DNA of 34,591 nucleotides from Hyphomicrobium sp. (lineage in GTDB: Bacteria > Pseudomonadota > Alphaproteobacteria > Rhizobiales > Hyphomicrobiaceae). Position numbers and translations under genes: made by a program. Of this stretch, positions 7,451-15,389 are shown in pieces. The DNA is taken from the NCBI GenBank assembly GCA_030609245.1, contig JAUWCP010000002.1, forward strand, positions 1 to 34,591. The letters run 5' to 3'. Numbering within the stretch: position 1 is the stretch's first letter; every line of letters begins with the position of its first letter. The notes below the pieces were generated by a model. That model saw only the letters and a program-made list of their open reading frames with translations, ran no database searches and was not told the DNA's origin.

Positions 7451-8728
7451 CTAAGACGTTCGAATTAGTGGCGGCAGCTGAGTAATATGCGCCGGCGCCA
7501 CGAAGTCACGCGGCTCCGCCCGCGCTGTATCATGGTGGATTATTCCAAAGCGATCACCGGCGCCAACGAGAACCAAGTCCGCGGGTTTGGAGCGTGCGCA
7601 GCCTTTCGCGCACCCTGAGATGTGGACACACCGGCAGCCCAGCTCGTTGAGGAGCGGCGCCAGGCGGCGAGCGGCTGCCCTCGTATCAAGCGTCGTTGAG
7701 CGACACGCGGGAGCGCCGGGGCAGGCGTCGATAGCAAGGAGAGGATCAGCCGTATCGATGATAAGCGAATGCGCCTGGGCCGCAGCAAGAAGCGTTTTGG
7801 CGGTCTGCTCATCGGAGACGGTGGCGTAAAAGCAGCGCCACGGAGAAAGACGGAATTGCCTCACGCCGAGCTTGATCGAAAGCGCTGCGAGTGTGCGCAG
7901 CGTCTCAGCTTCAATGCGCCCGAAAGGTGCGGCGATGCCGGCCGCGAAAACAGAGCCATTGTAGTCCAGCGTGCCAAGCCTTGGGCGCGTCTCCCCACCG
8001 AGCGGGATTTGTTCGATGAGCGCAAGTTGTGTTGCGACGGCCGCGTGTATCTGAAGTCGTGCGGTTTCGGGAAGATCGCGCATCCGCGATCGCACGTCCG
8101 AACCGCGTACGTCCAGGAAGGCATGCCCGACACAAACGGCTGCGTCTGCCGCTGTTTGGAGGTCAGCGGCGCCGAGCCAAGTTGTCCCCTCCGGCCCATC
8201 GATTCCGAGCGCGACCTTTGTTTCTTCGTCGACTCGAACGGCCTTGAGGCGAATGTCCGCCCGCTCGTTGTCCAACGAGAGAAGTCCTCTCCCATCGACA
8301 ATGAAACCAAACTTGCCCGGGAGCTGCCACAAGGTCTGATCTTCGACAAGATGGCGCTCAAGCTCCCTCGCGAGGCCGCGAACATCACAAATTTCAGTCG
8401 GGTCGACGCCGGCAAGCGGGTTCACCATGACGTTGCGAACGGCCTCGGCTTCCGAGCTGGGATCGAGCAACCCAAGCATCGAAAGGTCGGACCAAAGCCC
8501 GGCTAGCTTGTCCTGCGTCACGCCGCGGATTTGCACGTTGGCGCGCCGGGTCAGGTCGATTAACCCGTTGCCGAAGCGTTGCGCGATTCCCGCAATCGCG
8601 AGCAGATCATCGGCGGACAGCGTGCCTGCGTGCGCGCGCAGCCGGACAATCAGTCCATCCCCGCTCTCCATCGGCTTCAGCGCCCCTGGGCACCATCCAC
8701 GCACACTCTTGATATTTCTCTCAGTCAT
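7451..8728 (-). CDS. cobG: precorrin-3B synthase (oxygen-dependent CobG)
   Basis: Sulfite/nitrite reductase-like; VRGWCPGALKPMESGDGLIVRLR and Fe-S/siroheme-type cysteines CPGAPACRSTT...CAKGCARS. Start MTERNIKSV at 8728; the track ORF extends to 8806. Confidence 0.92.
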   Translation of the reverse strand: MTERNIKSVRGWCPGALKPMESGDGLIVRLRAHAGTLSADDLLAIAGIAQRFGNGLIDLTRRANVQIRGVTQDKLAGLWSDLSMLGLLDPSSEAEAVRNVMVNPLAGVDPTEICDVRGLARELERHLVEDQTLWQLPGKFGFIVDGRGLLSLDNERADIRLKAVRVDEETKVALGIDGPEGTTWLGAADLQTAADAAVCVGHAFLDVRGSDVRSRMRDLPETARLQIHAAVATQLALIEQIPLGGETRPRLGTLDYNGSVFAAGIAAPFGRIEAETLRTLAALSIKLGVRQFRLSPWRCFYATVSDEQTAKTLLAAAQAHSLIIDTADPLLAIDACPGAPACRSTTLDTRAAARRLAPLLNELGCRCVHISGCAKGCARSKPADLVLVGAGDRFGIIHHDTARAEPRDFVAPAHITQLPPLIRTS

Positions 8729-12161: not shown

Positions 12162-13199
12162 CTAGTCACCTGCGATGGAGCGCGAGATAGTCTCGCGATC
12201 GAGGCCCTTCTGGCCAATGACGACGAGGCGTCCGTTCCGTGGCTCATCGGGACGCCAAGAACGGTCGAATTGATGCTGGAGGCGCGCGCCCACTCCTTGG
12301 ATCAGCAGGCGCATTGGCTTGCCCTTGATGTCGGCAAATCCTTTGACCCGCAAAATGTCGTGCGCCTTCGCGGCGCGGGCGATGCGGTCGATAATGTCGT
12401 CGGGACTTTCCACGGAAGGAATCTCGACAATGAAGGTCTCGAAATCGTCGTGGTCGTGCTCAGCCTCATTATCGTGATGCGAGGGCCGAGCGGCCAGATC
12501 TGTTTCTGCGGCAGCGCCAATGCCGAGCAGAATCGTCGGATCCAAGCGTCCGCCTTGTGTTTGGATGACCTTGACCGCGCGTGGGATCGCCTCCTTGATC
12601 TCACCGCTTACGCGTTCGCGTTCGCCCGCGCTCATAATGTCGGTCTTGTTGAGAATAATGAGGTCGGCGCACAGAAGTTGATCTTCGTAAACCTCTTCGA
12701 GCGGGTTGTCGTGGTCTAGGGATTGATCCTCGGCTCGCTGACGGGCGAGAGCGTTTGGGTCATCGACAAAGCGTCCGGCGGCGACAGCCGCGCCGTCAAC
12801 GACGGCGATGACACCGTCGACTGTGACGCGCGAAGCGATTGCCGGCCAATTGAAGGCCTGAATAAGCGGTTTGGGCAGAGCAAGGCCAGACGTCTCGATG
12901 AGGATGTGTTCAGGCGGTGAGTCGAGTGCCAGTAGTGCTTCGAGGGCGGGAACAAAGTCCTCGGCGACGGTGCAGCAGATGCAGCCGTTGGACAATTCGA
13001 CAATGCGCTCGCCAGTGCAACTCTCAACGCCACAGCCTTTCAGGATTTCTCCGTCGATACCCACGTCGCCAAACTCGTTGACGATGACCGCGAGGCGGCG
13101 GTCGCCGGCATTTTCTAGAACGTGCCGCACGAGCGTCGTTTTTCCCGCACCCAGAAAGCCTGTAACTATGCTGCAGGGGACTTTGGCGAGCGTGGTCAT
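12162..13199 (-). CDS. cobW: CobW-type COG0523 GTPase / metallochaperone
   Basis: 345 aa; GFLGAGKTTLVRHVL, NEFGDVGIDGEIL, NGCICCTV (CxCC), NKTD, and a His/Asp-rich segment HHDNEAEHDHDD. Confidence 0.95.
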   Translation of the reverse strand: MTTLAKVPCSIVTGFLGAGKTTLVRHVLENAGDRRLAVIVNEFGDVGIDGEILKGCGVESCTGERIVELSNGCICCTVAEDFVPALEALLALDSPPEHILIETSGLALPKPLIQAFNWPAIASRVTVDGVIAVVDGAAVAAGRFVDDPNALARQRAEDQSLDHDNPLEEVYEDQLLCADLIILNKTDIMSAGERERVSGEIKEAIPRAVKVIQTQGGRLDPTILLGIGAAAETDLAARPSHHDNEAEHDHDDFETFIVEIPSVESPDDIIDRIARAAKAHDILRVKGFADIKGKPMRLLIQGVGARLQHQFDRSWRPDEPRNGRLVVIGQKGLDRETISRSIAGD

Positions 13200-13597
13200 G
13201 CGGTCTCCGTTTCCGGTTGCGTAAAGCCCCGCGGCGGTAGCCGCGCGACAACACCCTTGCGAAAGGTCGGCGGGCGTTCCTTCCAGGGGACGATTCCGTC
13301 CTCGGAGCGCTGATAGGCGAGAGCCGCCTCCACGACCTCGTCAGCGTGCTGCGCGGGGTCGAGGTCGCCAATGATGTAGACCCACTTTTCTTGGGCCGTG
13401 ACGGCGACCGTGCAGGGTCGCTTGCACACCGCCAAGCATTCAACAGGCGTGACTGTGACATCCTCGGCGCCCGCATCCTTCAGACGCGACCTTAGCGCAG
13501 GTACCAGCTCCGCACCCGGCAGGTCGTATGACTCGTCGTCATTCAGGCTGCGCCGGCACGAGACGCATACGAAAATCGTGACACTAAATCCCGTCAT
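13196..13597 (-). CDS. DUF1636-like small cysteine-motif protein (ferredoxin/thioredoxin-like)
   Basis: 133 aa; cysteine pattern VCVSCRRSL...ECLAVCKRPCTVAV, ending in RSEDGIVPWKERPPTFRKGVVARLPP; 4 bp overlap with cobW. Confidence 0.8.
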   Translation of the reverse strand: MTGFSVTIFVCVSCRRSLNDDESYDLPGAELVPALRSRLKDAGAEDVTVTPVECLAVCKRPCTVAVTAQEKWVYIIGDLDPAQHADEVVEAALAYQRSEDGIVPWKERPPTFRKGVVARLPPRGFTQPETETA

Positions 13598-13624
13598 GGG
13601 CGCCTCGCGTCCAAACTGTCGGCG

Positions 13625-14407
13625 CTAGGCGGCTGGGCGAGCGTTGAGATAGCCCAGCTTGTGCCAAAGAAAGCCAACGAAAAAGCCGGTCAGGATCCAA
13701 AGCGTTGCTTGGACAGCGAGCGAGGTTGCCGCGAATTGCGCCGCCAATTCCGCGGGAACCCCACTCTCATGCGACTCTGCGAGATGCGGAGCGCCCCAAA
13801 TATGGGGTGCGAGCACAATCGGTACCGCAAGCAGTCGCAGCCAGTTGTTGTCCGAGCGCAGGAAAAGCCACAAGGCCACGGCAGTACACAAAACAGTGGC
13901 AAGCCACCATTCTTGACGCCCGGGGAGGCCGGCGGCCGCCATGCCTGGCAATTCGGGTGAGAGGCCGACAGCAGGAGCAAGGCCCGCCGCTACGAAGCCT
14001 GCGGCCGCCCAAACCATAGCGCGCTGCTCATTGATCACGTCGCCAGAAAACAGCATGCCGGCGAGAATGATCAGCGCAAAGCCGATAGCAGTGGCAATCG
14101 TTGCGACGCTCGTGAAGACAGTGCGCTCCATTCCATCCTGCGGGGCCCACTCTTCCTTGTTCGACGGAGCGGAATCCTCTTCGCTACGTGCATCACCGTG
14201 TACGAGGATGAGGTGCGGTTGGGCTGGGGCGAAGATACGATCGGCGCCAGCATCAAAAGCAGCGCTGTCCGCCTTTGCCTCCTCAGCGTTCTCGAACACT
14301 TCAGCTGCGAGAATTATGGGCGTGGTGGTGAAGGATTGCAGGGCTGATACCGCGAGCCCAGCACAAAGCCCGGCCAACAGGCCGACGGCCAAAACGCGGG
14401 TGATCAT
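13625..14407 (-). CDS. cbtA: CbtA-family cobalt transporter subunit
   Basis: 260 aa with several hydrophobic segments; MITRVLAVGLLAGLCAGLAVSALQSFTTTPIILAAEVFE... and GLSPELPGMAAAGLPGRQEWWLATVLCTA. Confidence 0.88.
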   Translation of the reverse strand: MITRVLAVGLLAGLCAGLAVSALQSFTTTPIILAAEVFENAEEAKADSAAFDAGADRIFAPAQPHLILVHGDARSEEDSAPSNKEEWAPQDGMERTVFTSVATIATAIGFALIILAGMLFSGDVINEQRAMVWAAAGFVAAGLAPAVGLSPELPGMAAAGLPGRQEWWLATVLCTAVALWLFLRSDNNWLRLLAVPIVLAPHIWGAPHLAESHESGVPAELAAQFAATSLAVQATLWILTGFFVGFLWHKLGYLNARPAA

Positions 14408-14417
14408 GATCTATCCC

Positions 14418-14603
14418 TCAGTGGCAGGGAAAGCTGAGCGCGTGGCGCGTGTCATGCGCCGCGTTGTGGATTGTGGTCGGGTGCGCAAAACCCGTCGTAA
14501 AGACGAGCCCAACCCCAAAAACGAATGCGACGGTCGCGGCAATGAGCGCGCCGGACCGTTCGCTGCCACTGACGACAGGTATCGTATCAACTTGAGTGTT
14601 CAA
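14418..14603 (-). CDS. cbtB: CbtB-family cobalt transporter subunit
   Basis: 61 aa, one TM segment, C-terminal H-x-x-x-D-x-R-H...FPCH signature (HNAAHDTRHALSFPCH). TTG start preceded by GAGGAGGC. Confidence 0.88.
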   Translation of the reverse strand: MNTQVDTIPVVSGSERSGALIAATVAFVFGVGLVFTTGFAHPTTIHNAAHDTRHALSFPCH

Positions 14604-14651
14604 TTAAGCCTCCTCGGCCACCCCTCCGGGGCCATGTGAGCTGCTACGACG

Positions 14652-14826
14652 ACGGCAGGTCTCCTGACTCTCGGTTCACCGCCTCAGGCCACCTTCCCGG
14701 ATACCCAGTGGTACTTTGGCCTTCGGCTCGCCGACTACAGTTGCGGGGGCAGTTGCGGATTGGGGCTCCAAGGCCTACCGCATTCCCTTTCAATCCCCTT
14801 GCGGGGAACCGTCCAGGGCTTGATAA
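14652..14826 (-). promoter_or_regulatory. cobalamin (B12) riboswitch upstream of cbtB and the minus-strand cob operon
   Basis: Minus strand shows canonical blocks in order: GGTTCCCC...AAAGGGAATGCGGT, CTGCCCCCGCAACTGTAGTCGG, CCACTGG...CGGGAAGG, AGTCAGGAGACCTGCC. Ends ~50 nt before the cbtB start. Boundaries approximate. Confidence 0.95.
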
Positions 14827-14864
14827 AGGTTCAGTCCAAGGTTCGTCAAACGAAATTGCAGCTC

Positions 14865-15389
14865 ATGTCCGCAGGCCACCTGCCCCGATTGACCCTTGTT
14901 CTCGGCGGTGCGCGGTCGGGCAAGAGTCGGTATGCTGAAGAGATCCTGACAAAAGCTCCTGATCCATGGATCTATCTCGCGACCGCCCAGGCCTTGGACA
15001 GCGAAATGGAGGCGCGCGTTGCCGATCACAAGAAACGGCGGGGGGAGCAATGGCGAACGGTCGAGACTCCGCTCGACCTGCCTGAAGCGATCGTAAAACA
15101 TGGCGCAGGTGCGCAACCTCTTCTGATCGATTGTTTAACGTTGTGGCTGAGCAACGTTTTACTCGCGACGAGGGATATCGCTGCGGAAAGCGATCGCCTG
15201 GTTGCCGCCCTTGGCGAGGTCGATGGGCCGATTGTTGTTGTTTCGAATGAGGTCGGTTGGGGTATTGTGTCCGATAACAAACTCGCACGTGCATTTCGCG
15301 ACGCCCAGGGTCAGCTCAACCAGCGCGTCGCCGCAATTGCCGACCATGTCGTCTTGGTGGCCGCGGGTATTCCTCTGACGCTGAAATAG
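14865..15389 (+). CDS. cobP: adenosylcobinamide kinase / adenosylcobinamide-phosphate guanylyltransferase
   Basis: LTLVLGGARSGKSRYAEEIL, DCLTLWLSNVL, VVSNEVGWGIV. Start moved from 14760 to MSAGHLPRL at 14865, because the upstream part lies over the riboswitch. Confidence 0.93.
   Translation: MSAGHLPRLTLVLGGARSGKSRYAEEILTKAPDPWIYLATAQALDSEMEARVADHKKRRGEQWRTVETPLDLPEAIVKHGAGAQPLLIDCLTLWLSNVLLATRDIAAESDRLVAALGEVDGPIVVVSNEVGWGIVSDNKLARAFRDAQGQLNQRVAAIADHVVLVAAGIPLTLK

Follow-up and report, generated by a model that had tools for sequence, protein, structure and literature searches.

An operon of Hyphomicrobium sp. that combines genes for cobalt import and for aerobic cobalamin (B12) synthesis also encodes, directly before cobW, a small protein of the DUF1636 family, which raises the question of what this protein contributes to cobalamin metabolism. 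The operon lies in the window analysed here, a stretch of 34,591 nucleotides (contig JAUWCP010000002.1, positions 1 to 34,591). According to family knowledge, CbtBA is predicted to import cobalt, CobW is regarded as a GTPase chaperone for Co(II) and CobNST would carry out the insertion. To our knowledge, it is only in a few organisms that the physiological electron donors of aerobic B12 synthesis and of corrinoid salvage are well assigned. A small B12-regulated ferredoxin whose gene is found in operons for synthesis, for uptake and for the adenosyltransferase would offer a direct and testable donor candidate and, if this is true, would provide a function for a Pfam family still listed as DUF1636 in public annotation.

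A riboswitch-headed operon for cobalt import and cobalamin synthesis

Rfam, Pfam and NCBIfam searches recovered, at the expected place, every element of the module described in the initial annotation, namely a riboswitch heading cbtB-cbtA-DUF1636-cobW and leading into cobN (Table 1). The riboswitch scores well above the RF00174 gathering score of 31.5 bits and is followed by cbtB, cbtA, DUF1636, cobW, cobN and cobG, and then by cobH, cobI and cobJ. The gaps are short, with 33 nt between the riboswitch and cbtB, 10 nt between cbtB and cbtA, 27 nt between cbtA and DUF1636 and 8 nt between cobW and cobN, while the start of cobG overlaps the stop of cobN by 1 nt. The 4-bp overlap reported earlier between DUF1636 and cobW was confirmed as ATGA. 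CbtA and CbtB are assigned by TIGR02458 and TIGR02459 scores over the cut-offs, by the adjacency of their genes and by the B12 riboswitch ahead of them. The translation of cobW contains the P-loop GFLGAGKTT and the CxCC metal motif (NGCICC), which, together with the TIGR02475 score, places the protein in the CobW subgroup of the COG0523/G3E GTPases.

Table 1. Features of the DUF1636-containing operon in the window, from the riboswitch onwards
Feature	Position	Strand	Evidence
Cobalamin riboswitch, operon head	14637..14828	-	Rfam RF00174, 116.2 bits, E 1.1e-28, model 1-189 full length
cbtB, small subunit of proposed cobalt transporter	14418..14603	-	TIGR02459 67.2 bits (cut-off 64.4), PF09489
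cbtA, membrane subunit of proposed cobalt transporter	13625..14407	-	TIGR02458 217.7 bits (cut-off 182.9), PF09490
DUF1636 protein, 133 aa	13196..13597	-	PF07845 122.3 bits (cut-off 31.6)
ATGA, DUF1636 stop and cobW start	13196..13199	-	4-bp overlap, read from the sequence
cobW, G3E GTPase, CobW subgroup	12162..13199	-	TIGR02475 546 bits (cut-off 332.1)
cobN, cobaltochelatase large subunit, short type, 1141 aa	8728..12153	-	NF008973 1580 bits (cut-off 1235), TIGR02257 1245 bits
cobG, precorrin-3B synthase	7451..8728	-	TIGR02435 318 bits; ATG at 8728

The window otherwise encodes BluB, CobB, CobM, CobL, CobK, CobJ, CobI, CobH, CobP, CobO, CobQ, CobD, CobC, CobU and CobF, and it carries an almost complete aerobic cobalamin pathway. 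CobT is encoded on a different contig of the same genome. DUF1636 is present as one copy in this genome. The operon would be repressible by adenosylcobalamin: at low B12 the riboswitch would open, and CbtBA, DUF1636, CobW, CobN and CobG would be switched on. A search upstream of the riboswitch revealed no sigma-70-like promoter, a pattern that is not informative in this organism. The gene cobP (14841-15389) is divergent to this operon; about 13 nt separate its start from the riboswitch 5' end, and the two cob operons thus share one very short intergenic region.

Predicted fold and cysteine pattern of the DUF1636 protein

The initial annotation had described a C-x2-C ... C-x3-C pattern with a further cysteine nearby; these residues are C11 and C14, C54 and C58, and C62, respectively. 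Among 55 aligned family sequences, C11, C54 and C58 are fully conserved (55/55), while C14 is present in 54/55 and C62 in 45/55. Five AF2 models, calculated from the window protein together with 18 relatives from cyanobacteria, showed a mean pLDDT of 82 and a beta-alpha-beta-beta-beta-alpha order. The best PDB match of the model in Foldseek was 9jn8 (E 3.4e-13, TM 0.84-0.91 on the target), released in February 2025 under the entry title 'Crystal structure of a thioredoxin-like ferredoxin of Rhodobacter capsulatus'. The same entry is the best sequence match of the window protein (phmmer, E 1e-23), and the next best Foldseek matches were the Aquifex thioredoxin-like [2Fe-2S] ferredoxin structures 1f37/1m2a (E 5e-5 to 7e-4). 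Judging from the model and these matches, the DUF1636 protein almost certainly has a ferredoxin fold of the thioredoxin-like type.

The classical ligand pattern, a long-spaced first pair followed by C-x3-C, is replaced in DUF1636 by C-x2-C ... C-x3-C, and PF01257 gave no match to the window protein at E 0.1. The protein probably binds a [2Fe-2S] cluster via C11, C14, C54 and C58. Long reading frames at two loci (L075 and L077), which might have indicated DUF1636 fusion proteins, were judged to be ORFs over-extended upstream.

The role of DUF1636 had been called undefined in the initial annotation. This holds in so far as the literature searched for DUF1636 assigns it no function in B12 metabolism, but the thioredoxin-like ferredoxin fold had already been predicted in 2015, together with the proposal that an extra cysteine may stand in for the usual second ligand (PMC4520260), and a crystal structure followed in 2025. 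Both the fold and the tie to B12 clusters were partly known before.

Genomic contexts of the DUF1636 family

The search for DUF1636 covered 269 genomes from the class to which the window belongs, 299 genomes from the phylum, plasmid records and cyanobacterial genomes (single-protein scan), and about 140 loci from Pseudomonadota and Cyanobacteria were surveyed. Neighbours were labelled by phmmer against the window proteins and annotated references, whereby transporter specificity was taken from homology. The earlier idea presupposed that DUF1636 genes generally neighbour cobalamin genes, and this was borne out: for 80 of the 104 Pseudomonadota DUF1636 genes (at least 80 bits), genes for cobalamin synthesis, corrinoid-uptake-type genes or cbtAB are found no more than 6 kb away. 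Specifically, 47 are followed by cobW-cobN, 16 accompany corrinoid-uptake-type ABC/TonB genes, 15 accompany other cob genes and 2 have cbtAB alone, while the remaining 24 have no recognised cobalamin or cbtAB neighbour.

A B12-riboswitch-like motif was found up to 300 nt upstream of 41 of these 104 genes (30 before cobW-cobN, 9 in btu-type operons and 2 alone). An Rfam check of a tested subset, two cyanobacteria included, confirmed RF00174. The motif scan recovered the Rfam matches in the checked proteobacterial loci except for one riboswitch cut at the locus end; it missed cyanobacterial riboswitches and made one or two likely false matches. Since Rfam detected only one or two riboswitches per genome in five of seven genomes and none in the other two, the enrichment next to DUF1636 greatly exceeds what chance would give for a single gene out of thousands.

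The neighbourhoods show that the link between DUF1636 and B12 is general, extending to both synthesis and uptake, and in the clade of the window DUF1636 very likely serves cobalamin metabolism. In line with this link, CobN was present in 41 of the 47 DUF1636 genomes compared with 60 of the 222 others (p 1e-14, phylogeny ignored). What is gained over prior knowledge is evidence for DUF1636 as a B12-regulon gene across several contexts, and its role is therefore directly testable. Many cyanobacterial DUF1636 genes lack a B12 riboswitch and have siderophore-type TonB/ABC genes or COG0523/zinc genes as neighbours, and the family is thus not exclusive to B12. The DUF1636 tree rests on few columns and has many weak forks. 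A divergent second DUF1636 copy was observed beside cobF and/or a convergent cbtAB pair at five loci (L074, L207, L208, L072 and L073).

Six sampled genomes contain DUF1636 without cobW or cobN. In genome G219, a riboswitch at C61:40519 heads the order btuB-btuC-btuD-DUF1636, and this genome has no CobN, no CobW over the cut-off and no PF02572 cobO adenosyltransferase; its TonB protein is nearest to B12 receptors, yet scores under the curated cut-off. CobO can therefore not be a universal partner of DUF1636. A compact riboswitch-cobO-DUF1636 unit with a 4-bp cobO/DUF1636 overlap occurs in genome G536 and at L177:7606-8755, and a further uptake operon has the order btuB-DUF7676-btuCD-DUF1636-cobC/cobP. 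In Calothrix, a riboswitch-DUF1636 unit lies upstream of metE, and in Sinorhizobium medicae such a unit lies beside genes for the B12-independent methionine synthase and ribonucleotide reductase. On the S. medicae plasmid (L126), three cobalamin riboswitches flank B12-independent methionine synthase genes, nrdHIE and DUF1636 in what appears as a compact B12-shortage region.

DUF7676 (PF24724) was encountered beside TonB receptors in uptake-type operons (L123:10804-11676, L092:6250-7194, L038:6248-6823 and L046:14621-15283) and is present in 12 of the 269 genomes. In two cyanobacteria it carries, fused at the C terminus, a thioredoxin-like [2Fe-2S] ferredoxin domain (under the Pfam cut-off), and in two alphaproteobacteria it is a separate gene with DUF1636 in the same operon. 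A literature search for DUF7676 and cobX found nothing.

A candidate electron carrier for a cobalt or corrin redox step

We favour the explanation that DUF1636 is a B12-regulated thioredoxin-fold ferredoxin that would carry electrons for a cobalt/corrin redox step common to synthesis and salvage, although we rate this reading as a whole at somewhat less than an even chance. The operon, the riboswitch, the fold, the cysteine conservation and the B12-regulon membership in several contexts were computed; to these the explanation adds a putative bound cluster, a putative electron transfer and a putative acceptor. DUF1636 would pass electrons to a step needed by de novo synthesis as well as by the use of imported corrinoids. 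The likeliest step would be one that precedes adenosylation by CobO or a comparable enzyme, namely the reduction of Co(II) to Co(I) or of a corrinoid that has been taken up. That Co(II) is reduced ahead of CobO is established, and this step is otherwise assigned to the flavoenzyme CobR (PMC7242693). As the specific acceptor step of DUF1636, Co(II)-to-Co(I) reduction before adenosylation is possible but doubtful.

A wider proposal holds that the DUF1636 family comprises B12-riboswitch-controlled thioredoxin-fold ferredoxins dedicated to the reduction of the metal in tetrapyrrole or siderophore chelates. In aerobic organisms that make or scavenge B12, these proteins could fill the place of the still missing physiological donor of electrons for reducing and adenosylating corrinoids, and in uptake operons they might act with DUF7676. 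This proposal appears still more doubtful.

The initial annotation had offered two hypotheses for DUF1636, an Fe-S electron donor and a cobalt hand-off partner of CobW. The former is preferred because of the ferredoxin fold and the conserved cysteines; the latter fits less well, given the DUF1636 operons without cobW.

Weighing CobG, CobW and metal chelates as partners

Where the operon is of the window's type, DUF1636 could be the electron donor of CobG, the precorrin-3B monooxygenase, with CobW and CobN as mere neighbours, which we consider unlikely. In favour of such a role, CobG is described as containing an Fe-S centre and non-heme iron (in a reference given in PMC7242693), and the order DUF1636-cobW-cobN-cobG is strongly conserved. 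Within the 101 CobN-positive genomes, DUF1636 was found in 22/27 with CobG compared with 19/74 without CobG (p 6e-7), but this p value ignores phylogeny, and the enrichment may reflect shared inheritance of one gene cluster. The CobG and CobN sets behind the co-occurrence counts were curated by hand: NirA-like CobG and BchH-like CobN matches were removed, and six CobG matches under the cut-off were kept as they adjoin cobN or resemble a broken CobG.

DUF1636 is not confined to CobG genomes, since 19 CobN-positive genomes without CobG and 6 genomes without CobN carry it. That it also occurs in uptake operons under riboswitch control, and in genomes from which CobN or CobW is absent, likewise argues against a role tied to CobG. 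Conversely, three genomes (G021, G055 and G132) have CobG and lack DUF1636. DUF1636 is absent from three genomes with the same cobW-cobN-cobG cluster, where it must therefore be dispensable. Moreover, the best solved homologue, 9jn8, groups with cobW-linked sequences in the tree and comes from R. capsulatus, which makes precorrin-3B by CobZ in place of CobG (PMC7242693). CobG as the sole acceptor, as considered at the outset, is therefore unlikely, and a CobG-only donor role is further weakened by the DUF1636 genomes without CobG or CobN. Two types of CobN were distinguished in these genomes, a long one of about 1250 aa and a short one of about 1050-1200 aa, and CobG was found in 21/22 short-CobN compared with 6/79 long-CobN genomes.

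The other partner considered is CobW, to which DUF1636 could give Co(II), or from which it could take it, en route to CobNST; alternatively, it could keep the metal site of CobW reduced. At 53 loci DUF1636 directly precedes cobW, whose start is no more than about 20 nt away from the stop of DUF1636, and the 4-bp overlap is possible in 35 of them, so that this arrangement is not due to chance. In the window's own DUF1636 subgroup, the strongest neighbour signal is cobW and not cobO. The importer ahead of the pair is exchangeable (cbtBA in the window, cbiM/cbiQ in Rhodovulum), while DUF1636-cobW remains constant. A COG0523 neighbour is also seen at cyanobacterial DUF1636 loci, among them one on a Gloeocapsopsis plasmid, where B12 genes are absent from the vicinity and DUF1636 adjoins two COG0523 GTPases as well as duplicate genes for zinc enzymes. 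On this plasmid, from Gloeocapsopsis dulcis (L092), the duplicate genes are thrS, folE, hisI and cysS, which resembles a zinc-sparing set.

Nevertheless, an obligate partnership is contradicted by the 55 of 96 CobW genomes without DUF1636 and the six DUF1636 genomes without CobW. Operons of the btuBCD, cobO or cobC-cobD type carry DUF1636 with no cobW beside it, and both the fold and the solved homologue suggest a ferredoxin. The partnership with CobW thus seems as improbable as the CobG donor role, and cobalt hand-off as a family-wide role is weakened by the DUF1636 operons and genomes without CobW. The 'cobalt flow order' read from the gene arrangement in the initial annotation is accordingly less well supported, given that DUF1636 also occurs with btuBCD/btuF or cobO under riboswitches with no cobW nearby.

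Finally, it is very unlikely that DUF1636 proteins are general metal-chelate reductases whose substrates are corrinoids in most Proteobacteria and, in some of the cyanobacteria, ferric siderophores or other metallophores. Cyanobacterial DUF1636 genes do lie between TonB receptor and siderophore-binding-protein genes, and a B12 riboswitch precedes related Calothrix and Halotia sequences that are accompanied by metE or btu-type genes, but what the transporters carry is deduced solely from homology, and in the tree the siderophore-associated branch of the cyanobacteria stands apart from the clade of the window.

Comparison with known systems

The closest known counterpart of the window protein is 9jn8 (ORF378 of R. 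capsulatus), itself a DUF1636 protein, which is about 40% identical to it; a literature search for 9jn8 found no paper. The Aquifex ferredoxin (1f37/1m2a) and the Azotobacter ferredoxin FeSI (5abr) share the fold of DUF1636, and C54-x3-C58 of the window protein corresponds to their conserved second pair. In contrast, their first cysteine pair is long-spaced where DUF1636 has C-x2-C, and the identity is only about 20%.

At the level of the operon, Methylobacterium, Bradyrhizobium, Acidiphilium, Paracoccus and others possess aerobic cobW-cobN-cobG operons in which DUF1636 precedes cobW as in the window. Their importer is different or located elsewhere, whereas in the window cbtBA is placed between the riboswitch and DUF1636. 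Unlike the window, BtuBFCD-type uptake operons have no cobW, cobN or cobG beside DUF1636, and their DUF1636 sequences come from other branches of the tree, but the gene stands there under the same riboswitch family as in the window.
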